Position numbers and translations under genes: made by a program | NCBI GenBank assembly: GCA_009773155.1 | Contig: WOVA01000039.1 | Span: forward strand, 1 to 32,263 | DNA: 32,263 bases | DNA from: Elusimicrobiota bacterium | Lineage (GTDB): Bacteria > Elusimicrobiota > Elusimicrobia > Elusimicrobiales > UBA9959 | Direction: 5' to 3' | Shown here: positions 2,224-26,838 of the stretch, in pieces | How the letters are laid out: each line of letters opens with the position of its first letter | Numbering within the stretch: position 1 is the stretch's first letter | The notes under the pieces: model-generated | Seen by the model: the letters and a program-made list of their open reading frames with translations, nothing else | Database searches by the model: none | Told to the model about the DNA's origin: nothing

Positions 2224-2787
2224 ATGGCGATAAGACGCATCTGCAAGTACGGCGAGAAGATACTCGCCAAAAAGACCGGGCCGGTCGATTTTAGGGCTCT
2301 CAGGCCTTCGCTGCCGGCGCTGCTCGCCGACATGTTCGACACCATGGATATAGTCGGCGGGGCGGGCCTGGCCGCCAACCAGATAGGCCTCGACATGCGC
2401 CTCGCGGTCATAAAGGTGACGCGCGAAGAGGACGAGCTGCGGGTGGTCATCATAAACCCGGAGGTCGTCTCCGGCTCCGACATCGTGGAAGAGGACGAGG
2501 GCTGCCTGTCCTTCCCCGGGCTTTTCGCGAAGATAAAACGTTTTTCCAAGGTGAAGGTCCGCGCCCTCAACGAGAAGGGCATGCCGGTCGAGATCACGGC
2601 CGAGGGCCTGCTGGCCAAGGCGCTGCAGCACGAGATAGACCATCTCGACGGCGTGGTCTTCATAGACCGCCTGCCGGTGCTGACCCGGCTCAAGCTCAAG
2701 CCTGTGCTGATGCGACTCAAGCGCCAGTGGAAGAAGACCGACGAGAGCCGCATATCGCGCGGCCCCGCCAGGGACGGCTCAAAATGA
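2224..2787 (+). CDS. def: Peptide deformylase
   Basis: Removes the formyl group from the N-terminal methionine of new proteins. The 187-residue product carries all three family motifs: GGAGLAANQ (residues 45-53), EGCLS (92-96) and HEIDH (136-140). Cys94, His136 and His140 should bind the metal and Glu137 act in catalysis. The C-terminal ~35 residues are basic and extend past the core. The stop codon overlaps the fmt start in an ATGA at 2784-2787, the classic def-fmt pairing of formyl removal and formyl addition. Confidence 0.97.
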   Translation: MAIRRICKYGEKILAKKTGPVDFRALRPSLPALLADMFDTMDIVGGAGLAANQIGLDMRLAVIKVTREEDELRVVIINPEVVSGSDIVEEDEGCLSFPGLFAKIKRFSKVKVRALNEKGMPVEITAEGLLAKALQHEIDHLDGVVFIDRLPVLTRLKLKPVLMRLKRQWKKTDESRISRGPARDGSK

Positions 2788-3782
2788 GCGGCCCCCGGCT
2801 GGTTTTCCTGGGCACGCCCGGGACCGCCTGCCCGTTCCTTGAATCGCTGGTCTCGGCCGGTTTCGAGGTAGCCGGGGTCATAGCCCAGCCCGACCGTCCC
2901 GTCGGGCGCGGCATGAAGATGTGCTGCCCCCCCGTCAAGAATTCCGCGCTCGCCCTGAACCTTCCCGTATTCCAGCCCGCGTCGGGAGCGGAACTGCGCG
3001 AGGCGGTCGCGGCACTCAAGCCCGACCTCGGCGTGGTGGTGGCCTACGGCCGCCTCATAAAGAAAGAAGTCCTCTCCCTTCCCCCGCTCGGCTTCATAAA
3101 TCTCCATTTTTCGCTGCTGCCCAGGTACCGCGGCGCCGCGCCTGTGCAGTGGTCGCTTATCAACGGCGAGACGGAGACCGGCGTGACCGTCTTTCGCCTG
3201 GACGAGGGCATGGATACCGGCCCCGTCGTCGCCTCGGTCCGCACGCCGGTGGACCCGGCCGAGGACGCGCCCGCGCTTTTCGCCCGCCTGACGGAGCTGG
3301 GACGGGCGCTCCTGGTCTCGTCCGTCAGGGAGATAGGGGCGGGCCGCGCCTCCTTCACTCCGCAGTCCGGGGAGCCGTCTCACGCCCCCAAGATACGGCC
3401 GGCCCTCTCTTTTCTCTCCCCGTCGATGACGCCCGCCGCGGCGTTCGATCTTTTTCGCGGTCTGGCCTGCGGTCCCCGCGCCCGCTTCGCGACGCCGGCC
3501 GGGATGACGGTGCAGGTGCTGAAAGCTTCGCTCCGGCCCCCGACCGTGGACACTATACCTCATGGTGTCCACGGCGCCGGCGTCCCGGGCACGGTAGGCC
3601 ACGTTGAGCCCGGCAGAGGATTTTTTGTAAGATTCACCGGCGGGAGTCTGTTCCTGGAGGAGCTTAAACCGGAAGGGCGCGGCCCCGTCGGCGCGGCCGA
3701 TTTTCTCAACGGCGCCCGGCTCGTCCCCGGCGACGCTCTCATAGTTCCGCCGACCGCCGGAGGCGAAGGTCCCCATAAATGA
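2784..3782 (+). CDS. fmt: Methionyl-tRNA formyltransferase
   Basis: Formylates initiator Met-tRNA with 10-formyl-THF. I start it at the ATG overlapping the def stop (332 residues); an in-frame ATG at 2727 lies inside def and would add 19 unrelated residues. The N-terminal domain has the Rossmann start VFLGTP, the catalytic Asn107, His109 and Asp144, and the signature SLLPRYRGAAPVQW. The C-terminal OB-like domain is shorter and more divergent. Residues ~254-264 are encoded by a palindrome (3544-3574) related to intergenic repeats of this region and appear as an insertion before the conserved PGTV stretch. The stop overlaps the next start at 3779-3782. Confidence 0.96.
   Translation: MSGPRLVFLGTPGTACPFLESLVSAGFEVAGVIAQPDRPVGRGMKMCCPPVKNSALALNLPVFQPASGAELREAVAALKPDLGVVVAYGRLIKKEVLSLPPLGFINLHFSLLPRYRGAAPVQWSLINGETETGVTVFRLDEGMDTGPVVASVRTPVDPAEDAPALFARLTELGRALLVSSVREIGAGRASFTPQSGEPSHAPKIRPALSFLSPSMTPAAAFDLFRGLACGPRARFATPAGMTVQVLKASLRPPTVDTIPHGVHGAGVPGTVGHVEPGRGFFVRFTGGSLFLEELKPEGRGPVGAADFLNGARLVPGDALIVPPTAGGEGPHK
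3544..3574 (+). repeat. R3 palindrome inside fmt
   Basis: CCGTGGACAC (3544-3553) and GTGTCCACGG (3565-3574) form a perfect 10-bp inverted repeat. The interior (ACACTATACCTCATGGTGT) matches the intergenic R3 core ACACCATGCCGCATGGTGT at 15 of 19 positions. It keeps the fmt reading frame and encodes roughly VDTIPHGVHG. Confidence 0.65.
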
Positions 3783-11415: not shown

Positions 11416-11572
11416 CGGAATAACTATTCCGGGGGCATGTCGGCGTGTCAGCACGCAGGACACGGACTCGCGCGCATAGCGCGTCGGTCCTCGGCTCTCG
11501 GCGCTCGCGCTTACGATGCTCGCGCCTCCGAGGCGGTCCTGCTTAGCCGCCTCCCCCGGCTGTCTCCTTAAT
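11416..11572. repeat. R1 nested palindromic element, copy 1
   Basis: The element lies in the 462-bp gene-free gap after upp. It is built of nested inverted repeats: CCGGGGG (11429-11435) with CCCCCGG (11553-11559); GCAGGAC (11455-11461) with GTCCTGC (11536-11542); CCTCGG (11489-11494) with CCGAGG (11528-11533); GGCGC (11500-11504) with GCGCC (11522-11526), around a 17-nt loop. Small hairpins lie at 11416-11431 (CGGAATA/TATTCCG) and 11471-11483 (GC stem, ATA loop). The same architecture occurs at 24437-24707. It has no plausible coding capacity. Confidence 0.8.
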
Positions 11573-12610: not shown

Positions 12611-12636
12611 AATCCGGGGCCTCTCCCGTCGGGAAG

Positions 12637-12690
12637 CGGCCGGTCGCAGTGTTCCCGGCACCGACCGCGGCATAGCCGCCCTGTTCCGGC
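12637..12690. repeat. R4 repeat, intergenic copy
   Basis: In reverse orientation this ~54-bp segment matches 12944-12996 with one 1-nt indel and about four to five substitutions. It contains the hairpin GCGGC-ATA-GCCGC (12667-12679). It lies in the divergent intergenic region between the FNR-like gene and the flippase, upstream of both starts. Confidence 0.8.
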
Positions 12691-12693
12691 AAA

Positions 12694-12717: not shown

Positions 12718-14238
12718 ATGAAGAAGGACATAGGCAGGCTCGGCGGAGAATCGCTCATCTACGGACTTTCCACGGTCGCGGCGCGGCTGCTCACCTTCCT
12801 GCTGATGCCGTTCTACACCCATTACCTGCCGCCGGCGGGCTACGGCGTGGTGGCGGCCGTCTTCTCCTACATCGCTTTCCTCAACATCGTCTACCATTAC
12901 GGCCTGGACCAGTCCTATATGCGCCACCGCTCCGAGGACGCCGGCCGGAACAGGGCGGCATTGCCCGCAGTCGGTGCCGGGAGCACTGCGACCGGCCGGG
13001 CCTGGAGCTCGTCGCTGGCCTGCCTGCTGGCCTCCACGGCCTTCCTGACCCTGCTCATGTGCCTTTTCCCCTCCGCGCTGGCGGGGCTGGCGGGCATAGG
13101 CGCCGATTCCGGGCGGCTGGTGCTCTACGCGGCCGCCATACTGGCGCTGGACACCCTCTCGCTGCTGCCCTTCGCCGAGCTGCGCATGCGGCACAAGGCG
13201 CTGCGCTACGCGCTGGTGCGGACGGCTTCTATCGCGCTCAACGTCGCTCTCAATGTCTATTTCCTGGCCTTCCGGGGCATGGGCGTGGAAGGCGTCTTCC
13301 TGGCCAACATCCTCTCGTCGGCGCTCTCGCTGCTGCTGCTCTCGGACCTGCTCTTTTCGGCCATGCCGTCCTTCGACCGGGGCATGGCCCGCCGGCTGCT
13401 CTCCTTCGCCCTGCCGCTGCTGCCCGCCGGGCTGGGCGCGATGGCGGTGCAGGTCATAGACCGGCCGATAATGCTGGCGCTCTCGGGCGAGGCCGCCGTC
13501 GGCCTCTACCAGGCCGGCTACCGGCTGGGCATCTTCATGATGCTGATAGTGAGCATGTTCGACGCCGCCTGGCGCCCGTTCTTCCTGGAGCGGGCGGATA
13601 AGCCGGAGGCGCCGCCGGTCTTCGCGCGGGTGCTGACCTATTTCACGGCGCTGGCGGCCTGGACGCTGGTGGGAGTCTCGCTGCTCATCGAGGACGCCGT
13701 GAAGGCGGACCTGGGCGGCTTCTCGCTGATACACCCCGATTACTGGGCCGGGCTCAGGATAGTCCCCGTGGTGCTGGCGGCCTACCTGCTCAACGGCGTT
13801 TATGTGAATTTCCTGGCGCCGGTAATCATCGCAAAACGCACCGGCGAGATACTTAAAGTCACGCTGGCCGGCGCGGCCGCCAGCGTGGCCGCCAACTTCC
13901 TGCTCATCCCGCCGTTCGGCGCCATGGGCGCGGCGGCCGCGGCCCTGCTGGCTTACGCCGTCATGGCCGGCCTTATGTACCGCGCCGGCCGGGGGCTCAT
14001 GCAGGTTCCCTACGAGTGGGGACGGCTGTCGAGGCTGGCCGCGGTTACCTGCCTCTTCCTCGCCGGCCATTACGCCTTCGGTTCCGGCGCCCACGGCCCC
14101 GCCGCCTTCGGCGTGAAAGCCGCCGCCGCCCTGCTTTTCCCCGCCGCCCTCTGGCTGGCGGGCTTCTTCCTGCCCGGCGAAAAAGCCGAGGCCGCCGCTC
14201 TCCTGTCGCGTTTCACGCGCAAGAAGCCGGCGGCCTGA
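12718..14238 (+). CDS. Wzx-like polysaccharide/lipid flippase (MOP superfamily)
   Basis: A 506-residue integral membrane protein with about 12-14 hydrophobic segments. The N-terminus GGESLIYGLSTVAARLLTFL and the MPFYTHYLPPAGYGVVA stretch are typical of oligosaccharide flippases of the MOP/MATE superfamily, which move lipid-linked glycans across the inner membrane. Residues ~76-93 (around RNRAALPAVGAGSTATG) are encoded by an in-frame copy of repeat R4 and look like an insertion in the loop after the second helix. No glycosyltransferase genes lie nearby, so the substrate is unknown. The gene is divergent from the FNR-like regulator and converges with the ABC permease 19 bp away. Confidence 0.87.
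   Translation: MKKDIGRLGGESLIYGLSTVAARLLTFLLMPFYTHYLPPAGYGVVAAVFSYIAFLNIVYHYGLDQSYMRHRSEDAGRNRAALPAVGAGSTATGRAWSSSLACLLASTAFLTLLMCLFPSALAGLAGIGADSGRLVLYAAAILALDTLSLLPFAELRMRHKALRYALVRTASIALNVALNVYFLAFRGMGVEGVFLANILSSALSLLLLSDLLFSAMPSFDRGMARRLLSFALPLLPAGLGAMAVQVIDRPIMLALSGEAAVGLYQAGYRLGIFMMLIVSMFDAAWRPFFLERADKPEAPPVFARVLTYFTALAAWTLVGVSLLIEDAVKADLGGFSLIHPDYWAGLRIVPVVLAAYLLNGVYVNFLAPVIIAKRTGEILKVTLAGAAASVAANFLLIPPFGAMGAAAAALLAYAVMAGLMYRAGRGLMQVPYEWGRLSRLAAVTCLFLAGHYAFGSGAHGPAAFGVKAAAALLFPAALWLAGFFLPGEKAEAAALLSRFTRKKPAA
12944..12996. repeat. R4 repeat inserted in frame in the flippase gene
   Basis: This near-identical inverted copy of 12637-12690 is read in frame as about 18 residues rich in Ala, Gly and Arg. 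The 1-nt indel relative to the intergenic copy lies in the central hairpin loop, where ATA-type bases become ATT. Confidence 0.8.
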
Positions 14239-22136: not shown

Positions 22137-22165
22137 CGGGGACACCATGCCGCATGGTGTCCCCG
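22137..22165. repeat. R3 palindrome between serA and DUF1015
   Basis: CGGGGACACCATG (22137-22149) and CATGGTGTCCCCG (22153-22165) form a perfect 13-bp stem with loop CCG. It lies just after the serA stop and before the DUF1015 leader. With no T-run it is not a normal terminator. Confidence 0.85.
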
Positions 22166-22181: not shown

Positions 22182-23132
22182 TTATATCTTGTCGCCGTTG
22201 ACCGCGTGCGTGCGCTTGCCGCAGAGCAGGTAGTCGGCTATCTGCTCCGCCGCCTGCCGCGCCACCGTCACCTGCGCGTCCTTGGTGGAGGCCGCGATAT
22301 GGGGCGTGCAGATTACCTTCTCCATGCCGAAGAAGATGTGCTTGGTCGCGGGTTCCTCGGCGTAAACGTCCACGGCGAGGCCGGCGATGTGGCCGCTCTC
22401 GACCGCCGCCTTAACATCGGCTTCCACCATGATGCCGCCGCGGGCGCAGTTGATGACGCGCACGCCTTTCTTCATCTTGGCGATGGCGTCCTTGTTGAGC
22501 ATCCCCTTGGTGGCCGGGTTGATGGTCACGTGGTAGGTGATGAAGTCGGCCTTGGCGTAGAGCTCGTCGAGCGTGACCATCTTCACGCCCAGCTCGCGGG
22601 CGCGCTCCGTGGTCATAGCCGGGTCGAATACCAGCACGTTCATCTTGAGGCCCCGGGCGCGGTCTGCCACGACGCCGCCGATATTGCCGCAGCCTACTAC
22701 GCCCAGCGTCTTGTCGGTGAGCTCGACGCCCTCGAACTTGCTTTTCTCCCACTTACCCGCGTGCGTGGACGCGTGGGCCTGGGGGATGTGGCGCGCCAGC
22801 GCGAACATCATCGCTATGGCGTGCTCGCCGGTCGAGACGGTGTTGCCGAACGGCGTGTTCATGACCAGCACCTTCTTCTCGGTGGCGGCGGGGATGTCGA
22901 TGTTGTCGACGCCGGCGCCGGCGCGGGCCACGGCCTTGAGGTTAGTGGCGGCCTCCATGATCTCGCGGGTTATCCTGCTGGCCGAGCGGACGATGATGCC
23001 GTCGAACTCATGGGCGCAGGCCTTGAGCTCTTCGGGCTTCATGCCGGTCCTGACCACGGCCTCTATGCCGCGGTCCTTGAGGGTCTTCTCGCAGAGGGGA
23101 TCGGCTTTATCGGCTATAAGGACTTTGCTCAT
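22182..23132 (-). CDS. serA: D-3-phosphoglycerate dehydrogenase, short form
   Basis: First step of serine synthesis: oxidises 3-phosphoglycerate with NAD. The 316-residue product has VRSASRI, the NAD loop GCGNIG (147-152), and the catalytic set Arg231, Glu260 and His278 (CTPHIAAST). It ends at HAVNGDKI, where long forms continue into ASB and ACT domains, so feedback inhibition by serine through an ACT domain is not expected. The family also contains other 2-hydroxyacid dehydrogenases, but overlap with serC supports SerA. ATG overlaps the serC stop (23129-23132). Confidence 0.93.
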
Positions 23133-24307: not shown

Positions 24308-24326
24308 GTCTTTCCTCCGTTGGTGC

Positions 24327-24353
24327 GGGGACACCATGCCGCATGGTGTCCCC
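24327..24353. repeat. R3 palindrome upstream of serC
   Basis: GGGGACACCATG (24327-24338) and CATGGTGTCCCC (24342-24353) form a perfect 12-bp stem with loop CCG, identical in core to 22137-22165. It would lie in the serC leader, about 20 bp before the start codon. Confidence 0.85.
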
Positions 24354-24436: not shown

Positions 24437-24707
24437 CCTAATTAAGGAGGAATTATTCGGGGGCATGACGGCGCGACAGCCCGCGGGGTACGGACTCGCG
24501 CGCATAGCGCGTCGGTCACGCATAGCCCGCATAGCGGGCTTGCGCGACCCCACCTCGGCGTTTTCGCTTACGCATGAAAACGCCTGCGGCCTTGCGGACC
24601 TGCACCGCAGGTCCTCACCTCGGCTCTCGCCGCTCGCGCTTACGATGCTCGCGGCTCCGAGGCGCCCCCGCCGGGCTGTCGCGCCGTCTCCCCCGGTTGT
24701 TCCCTTA
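24437..24707. repeat. R1 nested palindromic element, copy 2
   Basis: A larger relative of 11416-11572. Its outer arm pairs GACGGCGCGACAGCCC (24467-24482) perfectly with 24673-24688, flanked by CGGGGG (24458-24463) and CCCCCG (24690-24695), and continues inward with GCGGGG/CCCCGC. The inner core keeps the copy-1 geometry: CCTCGG (24618-24623), GCCGC (24629-24633), 17-nt loop, GCGGC (24651-24655), CCGAGG (24657-24662). Extra hairpins lie at 24524-24540 (AGCCCGC-ATA-GCGGGCT), about 24557-24584 (GGCGTTTTC/GAAAACGCC) and about 24597-24615 (GGACCTGC/GCAGGTCC). The right end runs into the RNase R stop codon. Confidence 0.85.
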
Positions 24708-26774: not shown

Positions 26775-26810
26775 TTATCTTTTACTCTCCATGTATGTAA
26801 CCGGACTTTC

Positions 26811-26838
26811 CGGGACACCATGCCGCAGGGTGTCCCCG
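26811..26838. repeat. R3 palindrome in the RNase R leader
   Basis: GGGACACC (26812-26819) pairs with GGTGTCCC (26829-26836) around an ATGCCGCAG centre that differs by one base from the R3 consensus (A/G mismatch). It lies 37 bp before the rnr start. Confidence 0.8.

Follow-up and report, generated by a model that had tools for sequence, protein, structure and literature searches.

The best-known in-frame palindromic inserts in protein genes come from Rickettsia and a small number of other lineages, and they are usually exceptions. A palindrome lying in frame within the gene fmt of an Elusimicrobia genome raised the question of whether it belongs to a dispersed repeat family and, if so, how such a repeat can be accommodated in the genes of conserved proteins. 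We analyzed the surrounding stretch of 32,263 nucleotides (here referred to as the window), sampled stretches of the same genome and the corresponding loci of its relatives.

The fmt palindrome and its loop

The gene fmt (2784–3782, + strand) encodes methionyl-tRNA formyltransferase, a protein of 332 aa with the Pfam domains Formyl_trans_N and Formyl_trans_C whose best solved relative is 1fmt. A palindrome of 31 nt, CCGTGGACACTATACCTCATGGTGTCCACGG, lies in frame within this gene at 3544–3574 (+ strand), with its core at 3548–3570. Its fold is a hairpin with 13 bp in the stem and 5 nt in the loop (-23.7 kcal/mol, z -6.0). The first-pass annotation had placed about ten residues just before the conserved PGTV stretch, and indeed the palindrome encodes residues 254–264 (TVDTIPHGVHG) directly ahead of AGV-PGTV.

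The same annotation had described the palindrome as matching the intergenic units of a repeat named R3 in both core and arm. This was correct for the 23-nt core, which differs from the R3 consensus GGACACCATGCCGCATGGTGTCC by 3 mismatches. It was not correct for the outer arm, which reads GTGG...CCAC in fmt and GGGG...CCCC in the intergenic units; these are two paired changes and the stem is kept. Further R3 copies of the short form were found in the window at 22137–22164, adjoining the gene at 22182–23132, at 24326–24353 and at 26810–26837. All three are on the + strand, outside called genes, and absent at the orthologous site in a congener stretch (L256). The fmt copy is read in the favoured phase of R3 (DTIPHGV, see below). 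Judged by its sequence, the fmt palindrome is a diverged R3 copy, and probably an older one.

A match to Fmt was present in 59 of the 61 genomes searched. We aligned 30 fmt loci, 29 of which cover the loop, while the locus of the same-genus genome G003 stops at a contig edge before it. The residues VDTIPHGV occurred only in the Fmt of this genome among the 29 loop-covering loci; none of these homologs therefore has them encoded by non-palindromic codons, and the in-frame R3 copy in fmt was upheld. The two same-genus orthologs are 87% and 79% identical to this Fmt and carry LPPGAPA- and LPAGAPA-type loops (G001 and G002, respectively) without the R3-encoded residues. Compared to E. coli Fmt, the loop is longer here, as had been proposed and as the alignment to 1fmt confirmed.

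Relative to G001 the fmt loop has a net gain of +18 nt (6 residues), and relative to G002 one of +24 nt (8 residues). In other genera (L041, L044, L058) this position is occupied by unrelated loops of greater length, so it tolerates change; for the same reason a clean insertion of 31 nt in fmt is not demonstrable.

A structural model of Fmt was calculated with AlphaFold2 (41 rows, mean pLDDT 92, pTM 0.88). Its main internal stretch of low confidence is the loop between the strands 242–249 and 270–275, with block means of 59 (block 251–260) and 71. The R3 residues are predicted to fall within this loop. The insert may be without effect on the activity of Fmt.

R3 and R4 in the genome

The short form of R3 is exactly 27 nt in size (GGGGACACCATGCCGCATGGTGTCCCC); in the long form of about 45 nt, GCCGCATCAGC and GTACCG flanks are added. 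The consensus ends are GCCGCATCAGCGGGGGACACC...GGTGTCCCCGTACCG, and folding energies ranged from -23.7 to -28.1 kcal/mol with z below -4.7. A scan of the whole genome for R3 and its reading frames, as suggested by the first-pass annotation, revealed about 142 places, with most of the examined copies inside genes and one frame favoured. Allowing up to 3 mismatches, 142 matches were obtained per strand versus 0 for the reversed control pattern; we counted those on the two strands as the same palindromic places read twice. A stricter pattern gave 127 copies in this genome and 9, 11 and 13 copies in the same-genus genomes G001, G002 and G003. Elsewhere in the phylum, 4 genomes had a single copy each, and the other 286 of the 294 genomes had none. 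The amplification of R3 is lineage-specific. Carriage by phages or plasmids was rejected, as searches of viral contigs, plasmids and phages all came back without a match. In addition to R3, the window contains a further pair of long repeats (11430–11542 and 24458–24671, families D9 and D10) that are about 90% alike.

For the position relative to genes, 108 copies from 86 stretches of this genome and the window were examined (up to 5 substitutions, at least 8 of 10 arm pairs). This match rule is looser than the one giving 142 places, the two sets nest only approximately, and near-perfect copies are over-represented among the 108 because these were drawn from places listed by the search. Genes were called with our own simple caller, a codon log-odds model trained on 10 ORFs of the window. 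In total, 73 of the 108 copies were located inside gene calls and 35 outside. Compared with the coding density of 0.94 in the sampled sequence, R3 is thus under-represented in genes.

The 73 in-gene copies were distributed over the three phases as 59/10/4 (binomial p 1e-16 versus one third), although such counts are not fully independent because some copies are in tandem or share a gene (five in one ORF). The favoured phase is codon-aligned and reads GDTM[P/R]HGVP, with GDTMRHGVP in the other orientation. Among the 39 long-form in-gene copies with readable orientation, 29 were in sense and the favoured phase, 6 antisense in the favoured phase and 4 antisense in another phase. Avoidance of stop codons does not account for the bias and was rejected as its cause, since a stop is present in only one of the six frames of the long form (reversed, favoured phase, consensus) and in none of the short form. 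A preference for certain target sequences was rejected as well: weight matrices of the flanks predict 14–21% of copies in the favoured phase, not 81%.

The bias was also found where the gene was confirmed by an ortholog, for which tblastn alignments across the element to the sampled stretches of G001 and G002 and to the fmt loci were used; here 22 of 23 sites were in the favoured phase (p 5e-10). In the congeners themselves it was seen in 5 of 6 in-gene copies of G001 and 6 of 6 of G002, 11 of 12 in total, in stretches of 383 kb and 400 kb whose selection was guided in part by the R3 hits of these genomes. Another 15 copies in the congener stretches did not fall within a gene call; for at least one (L249) the caller had missed the gene. 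When frames were predicted from the flanks only, leaving out the element and 33 nt on each side of it, 55 of the 108 copies were uncertain, 18 had flanks that disagreed in frame on one strand and 1 had flanks on different strands. The other 34 had one shared frame, which was the favoured phase in 24.

Some individual loci deserve mention. R3 occurs five times in an ORF of 782 aa without Pfam match (L213:314–2662, - strand), each time in the favoured phase. At L219:594–1667 (- strand), R3 is read in a rare phase (GHHSAWCP) inside an ABC ATPase domain, shortly past the P-loop. At C18:22484 (L022:1501) an antisense long-form copy apparently provides the upstream gene with its stop codon and last residues.

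A second palindrome family, R4, was located by comparing the window with the sampled stretches. One copy lies in a flippase-like gene (12718–14238, + strand, 506 aa; a putative name from sequence reading) at 12941–13001 (+ strand), and a second is present outside called genes at 12636–12691 (- strand). The copy in the flippase gene is in frame, and its 51-nt unit adds 17 residues. Exactly these 17 residues are lacking from the congener ortholog (L256, 81% identical); RSEDAGRNRAALPAVGAGSTATGRAWSS here corresponds to RSEDAARAWSS there. A palindrome at 13860–13887 was rejected as a member of R4 because it is single-copy. R4 matched this genome 50 times (30 + 20) and G001, G002 and G003 3, 5 and 5 times, respectively. 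Of its 16 distinct copies in the sampled stretches, 8 fell within gene calls and were read in various frames; the R4 unit is open in all six.

The in-frame R4 palindrome noted earlier in the flippase is therefore a member of a repeat family, and the proposed pair of in-frame insertions in one window holds for both; its scale and frame were understated, as the pair belongs to a genome-wide population located mainly in genes, in which R3 strongly favours one codon-aligned phase. R4 was also found in the centre of R3 at L226:1440–1511 and L231:1504–1575. In these cases the 3 central nt usual in R3 are replaced by 54, an increase of exactly 51, and the frame is kept (GDTM-R4-HGV).

Host proteins and orthologous sites

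Pfam matches were obtained for 25 of the 30 R3 host proteins scanned. According to these matches, from which all gene names were read, the hosts comprise Fmt, a RimO/MiaB-like radical SAM protein (two copies), a hybrid-cluster protein, an ABC ATPase, a polyprenyl synthetase, an AMP ligase, FliG, MetH, a NuoL-like antiporter subunit, DnaX (two copies), a sigma factor, FtsK and others. Of the 29 elements in these 25 proteins, 8 were inside and 21 outside a Pfam domain, typically between domains; this tally is approximate because only the best stretch per family was listed. For example, R3 is located between the 4TM and alpha domains of FtsK, between regions 2 and 4 of the sigma factor, and between the pterin- and B12-binding domains of MetH. 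The flanks of R3 differ from the rest of the same proteins by more Ala and Pro (0.29 versus 0.19) and fewer large hydrophobic residues (0.26 versus 0.31). In one dnaX gene (L003:686–2473, - strand; L003 / L004), the linker past the last Pfam domain carries R3, R4 and R3 consecutively, all in frame. In the hosts at L012, L031, L214 and L217 (C15_19955, C27_51112, C74_11579 and C85_30967) the ASA/G of the long form (ASA followed by G) would, judged by eye, coincide with a putative cleavage site.

At 11 of the 23 ortholog-supported sites this genome has at least 4 extra residues and the ortholog lacks the motif, while at 6 sites the motif is clearly shared with the ortholog. Two sites are diverged or differently framed, one is a tandem partner of these and 3 are ambiguous; all classes were read from the alignment output. 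The hybrid-cluster protein, for instance, is 95% identical to its ortholog and carries 8 additional residues. Several comparisons revealed a small net gain or a replacement, not a full unit, and neither clean insertion boundaries nor target-site duplications were clear in the ortholog alignments.

Origin of R3 and comparison with known repeats

The fmt palindrome is very probably a diverged copy of a small non-autonomous mobile element, R3, that multiplied recently in this species and is tolerated in loops and linkers. The hairpin-forming palindrome would be copied to new places, genes included, and its copies would persist where the frame of the host is kept and the site is a loop, a linker or a protein end. 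Those surviving in genes would then be mostly codon-aligned, reading G-D-T-M-[P/R]-H-G-V-P. This favoured peptide contains Gly and Pro, is turn-like and is nearly the same in either orientation. The movement itself may have been by transposition, and selection is the probable cause of the frame bias.

A mechanism for such movement is offered by the tyrosine transposases of the RAYT/TIRYT type, and this would not contradict the explanation just given. R3 would then be a REP/TIR-type repeat whose hairpin is nicked in trans at the GGGGACAC foot, and the in-gene copies would be by-products. Three Y1_Tnp genes are present in this genome. One of them (L064) has palindromes starting with GGGGACACAATACC / GGGGACACAATACCTATTTC on both sides, and so do the corresponding genes of G002 (L284) and G003 (L281). 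R3 shares GGGGACACNATNCC with these flanking palindromes and the fmt copy has an intermediate GGACACTATACC; because of the shared foot and this intermediate form a kinship of both families is plausible. Additionally, the GGGGWSAS motif described for repeats flanking TIRYT/RAYT-like transposases (PMC3733652) fits GGGGACAC, which is found at both R3 ends. However, the palindrome that flanks one of the three Y1_Tnp genes is a different GGGGACAC palindrome, and the R3 core was not found within about 1.5 kb on each side of the three genes. The flanking family (about 45–51 nt) also behaves otherwise: 26 of its 29 copies are outside gene calls compared to 35 of 108 for R3 (Fisher p 2e-8), even though only one of the three frames of the flanking family is closed. 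No parent element with ends matching R3 was found in the Y1_Tnp loci and the sampled stretches, and the genes between two R3 copies (one pair inspected) did not look transposase-like by eye. A RAYT/TIRYT enzyme may have mobilised R3, yet we consider this rather doubtful.

The Y1_Tnp-flanking palindromes were also seen as a family in their own right. Those of L064, at 729–779 and 1948–1992, are long, of the GGGGACACAATACCTATTTC type and kept in the congeners, and many further copies are located on few contigs (C28, C45, C48, C68).

It is quite improbable that the R3 peptide itself was selected, as a linker, sorting or processing motif such as a signal-peptidase-like site followed by a spacer, with the DNA palindrome being secondary. 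The dominance of one frame would fit this, and several long forms directly follow signal-like sequences by eye (C15_19955, C27_51112, C74_11579, C85_30967). But the palindrome is conserved as DNA in the 35 copies outside genes too, the hosts are unrelated and include several cytosolic enzymes, and where species share a copy, its residues are altered (GDTMRHGV to GDAMRHGV or GDTVRHGV).

It is very improbable that R3 is an ordinary extragenic palindrome, a terminator or mRNA stabiliser, some copies of which were placed in genes only by errors of gene calling or metagenome assembly. Short forms are often located just 3' of genes, the gene caller is a simple one, and 13 of 51 complete genes carry R3 within 40 residues of the C-terminus (6.1 expected). 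In 23 cases, however, an ortholog can be aligned across the element without a change of frame, and the flanks are collinear with those of relatives across 43 sites (blast). Moreover, the host proteins belong to conserved families, and the element lies inside their domains or between them. The reading as REP or terminator was thus rejected for most copies, whose in-gene positions are supported by orthologs.

Finally, a chance palindrome in a variable loop, without kinship to R3, is an extremely improbable source of the fmt copy: its 3 core mismatches and two outer-arm changes and the varying loop length in other genera would allow it, but the R3 core pattern has 4 places in the window and 0 matches in 100 dinucleotide shuffles of it, the outer-arm changes are paired, and the frame DTIPHGV is that of 59 of the 73 in-gene copies.

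The probable mobile element R3 is closest in behaviour to the Rickettsia palindromic elements (RPEs), followed by intragenic REPs (Opitutus and others). RPEs are described as hairpin-forming, lineage-specific repeats of about 100–150 bp that occur between genes and in frame in unrelated conserved genes, also in Wolbachia, and these papers present them as confined to Rickettsiales (PMC10969869, PMC3767692, PMC2229807). R3 likewise is a dispersed hairpin-forming palindrome (142 matches per strand), found both between genes (35/108) and inside unrelated genes with varied Pfam hosts (73/108). It is also absent from the orthologs of relatives without a break of frame, clearly so at 11 of 23 sites. 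It differs by its strong bias to one codon-aligned frame and, together with R4, by size (27–45 nt and 51 nt) and its Elusimicrobia genome in place of a rickettsial host. By analogy R3 and R4 appear to work like RPEs; we keep them apart from the RPE family.

Intragenic REPs of the GTAG and CGTC families (Opitutus terrae; RPE-4 and RPE-6 of R. conorii) were reported singly or grouped in coding regions including replication genes, with REPs in general being mostly intergenic according to the same source (PMC3733652). R3 resembles them as a short palindrome inside coding regions. Unlike the mainly extragenic REPs it is mostly found in gene calls (73/108), and its consensus end has no GTAG or CGTC tag. 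Codons are also added to hosts by the palindromic or inverted-repeat DNA of PARCELs and of MITE-encoded peptide fusions, such as ERIC, Correia and the Coxiella QMITE (PMC2996958, PMC10969869). In contrast to R3, PARCELs are tandem amphipathic repeats, and the elements in MITE fusions are usually longer and have terminal inverted repeats. For palindromes of Elusimicrobia no report was found in the open-licence literature.

We tentatively propose, at somewhat less than even confidence, that life inside protein genes is what R3 and R4 have adapted to as selfish DNA. Both unit sizes (27 and 51 nt) are multiples of three, and 5 of the 6 frames are open in the long form of R3. Moreover, the R3 palindrome is codon-symmetric and therefore reads nearly the same turn-forming peptide in either orientation. 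If this is true, a mobile element would have evolved toward harmlessness at the protein level, with coding DNA (94% of the sampled sequence) as its habitat and new loops in conserved enzymes as a result. In an uncultured lineage, two short families have provided conserved proteins with dozens of new peptide segments that are present or absent between congeners. R3 and R4 thus represent a natural experiment in mobile DNA adapting to coding sequence and in proteins gaining loops.
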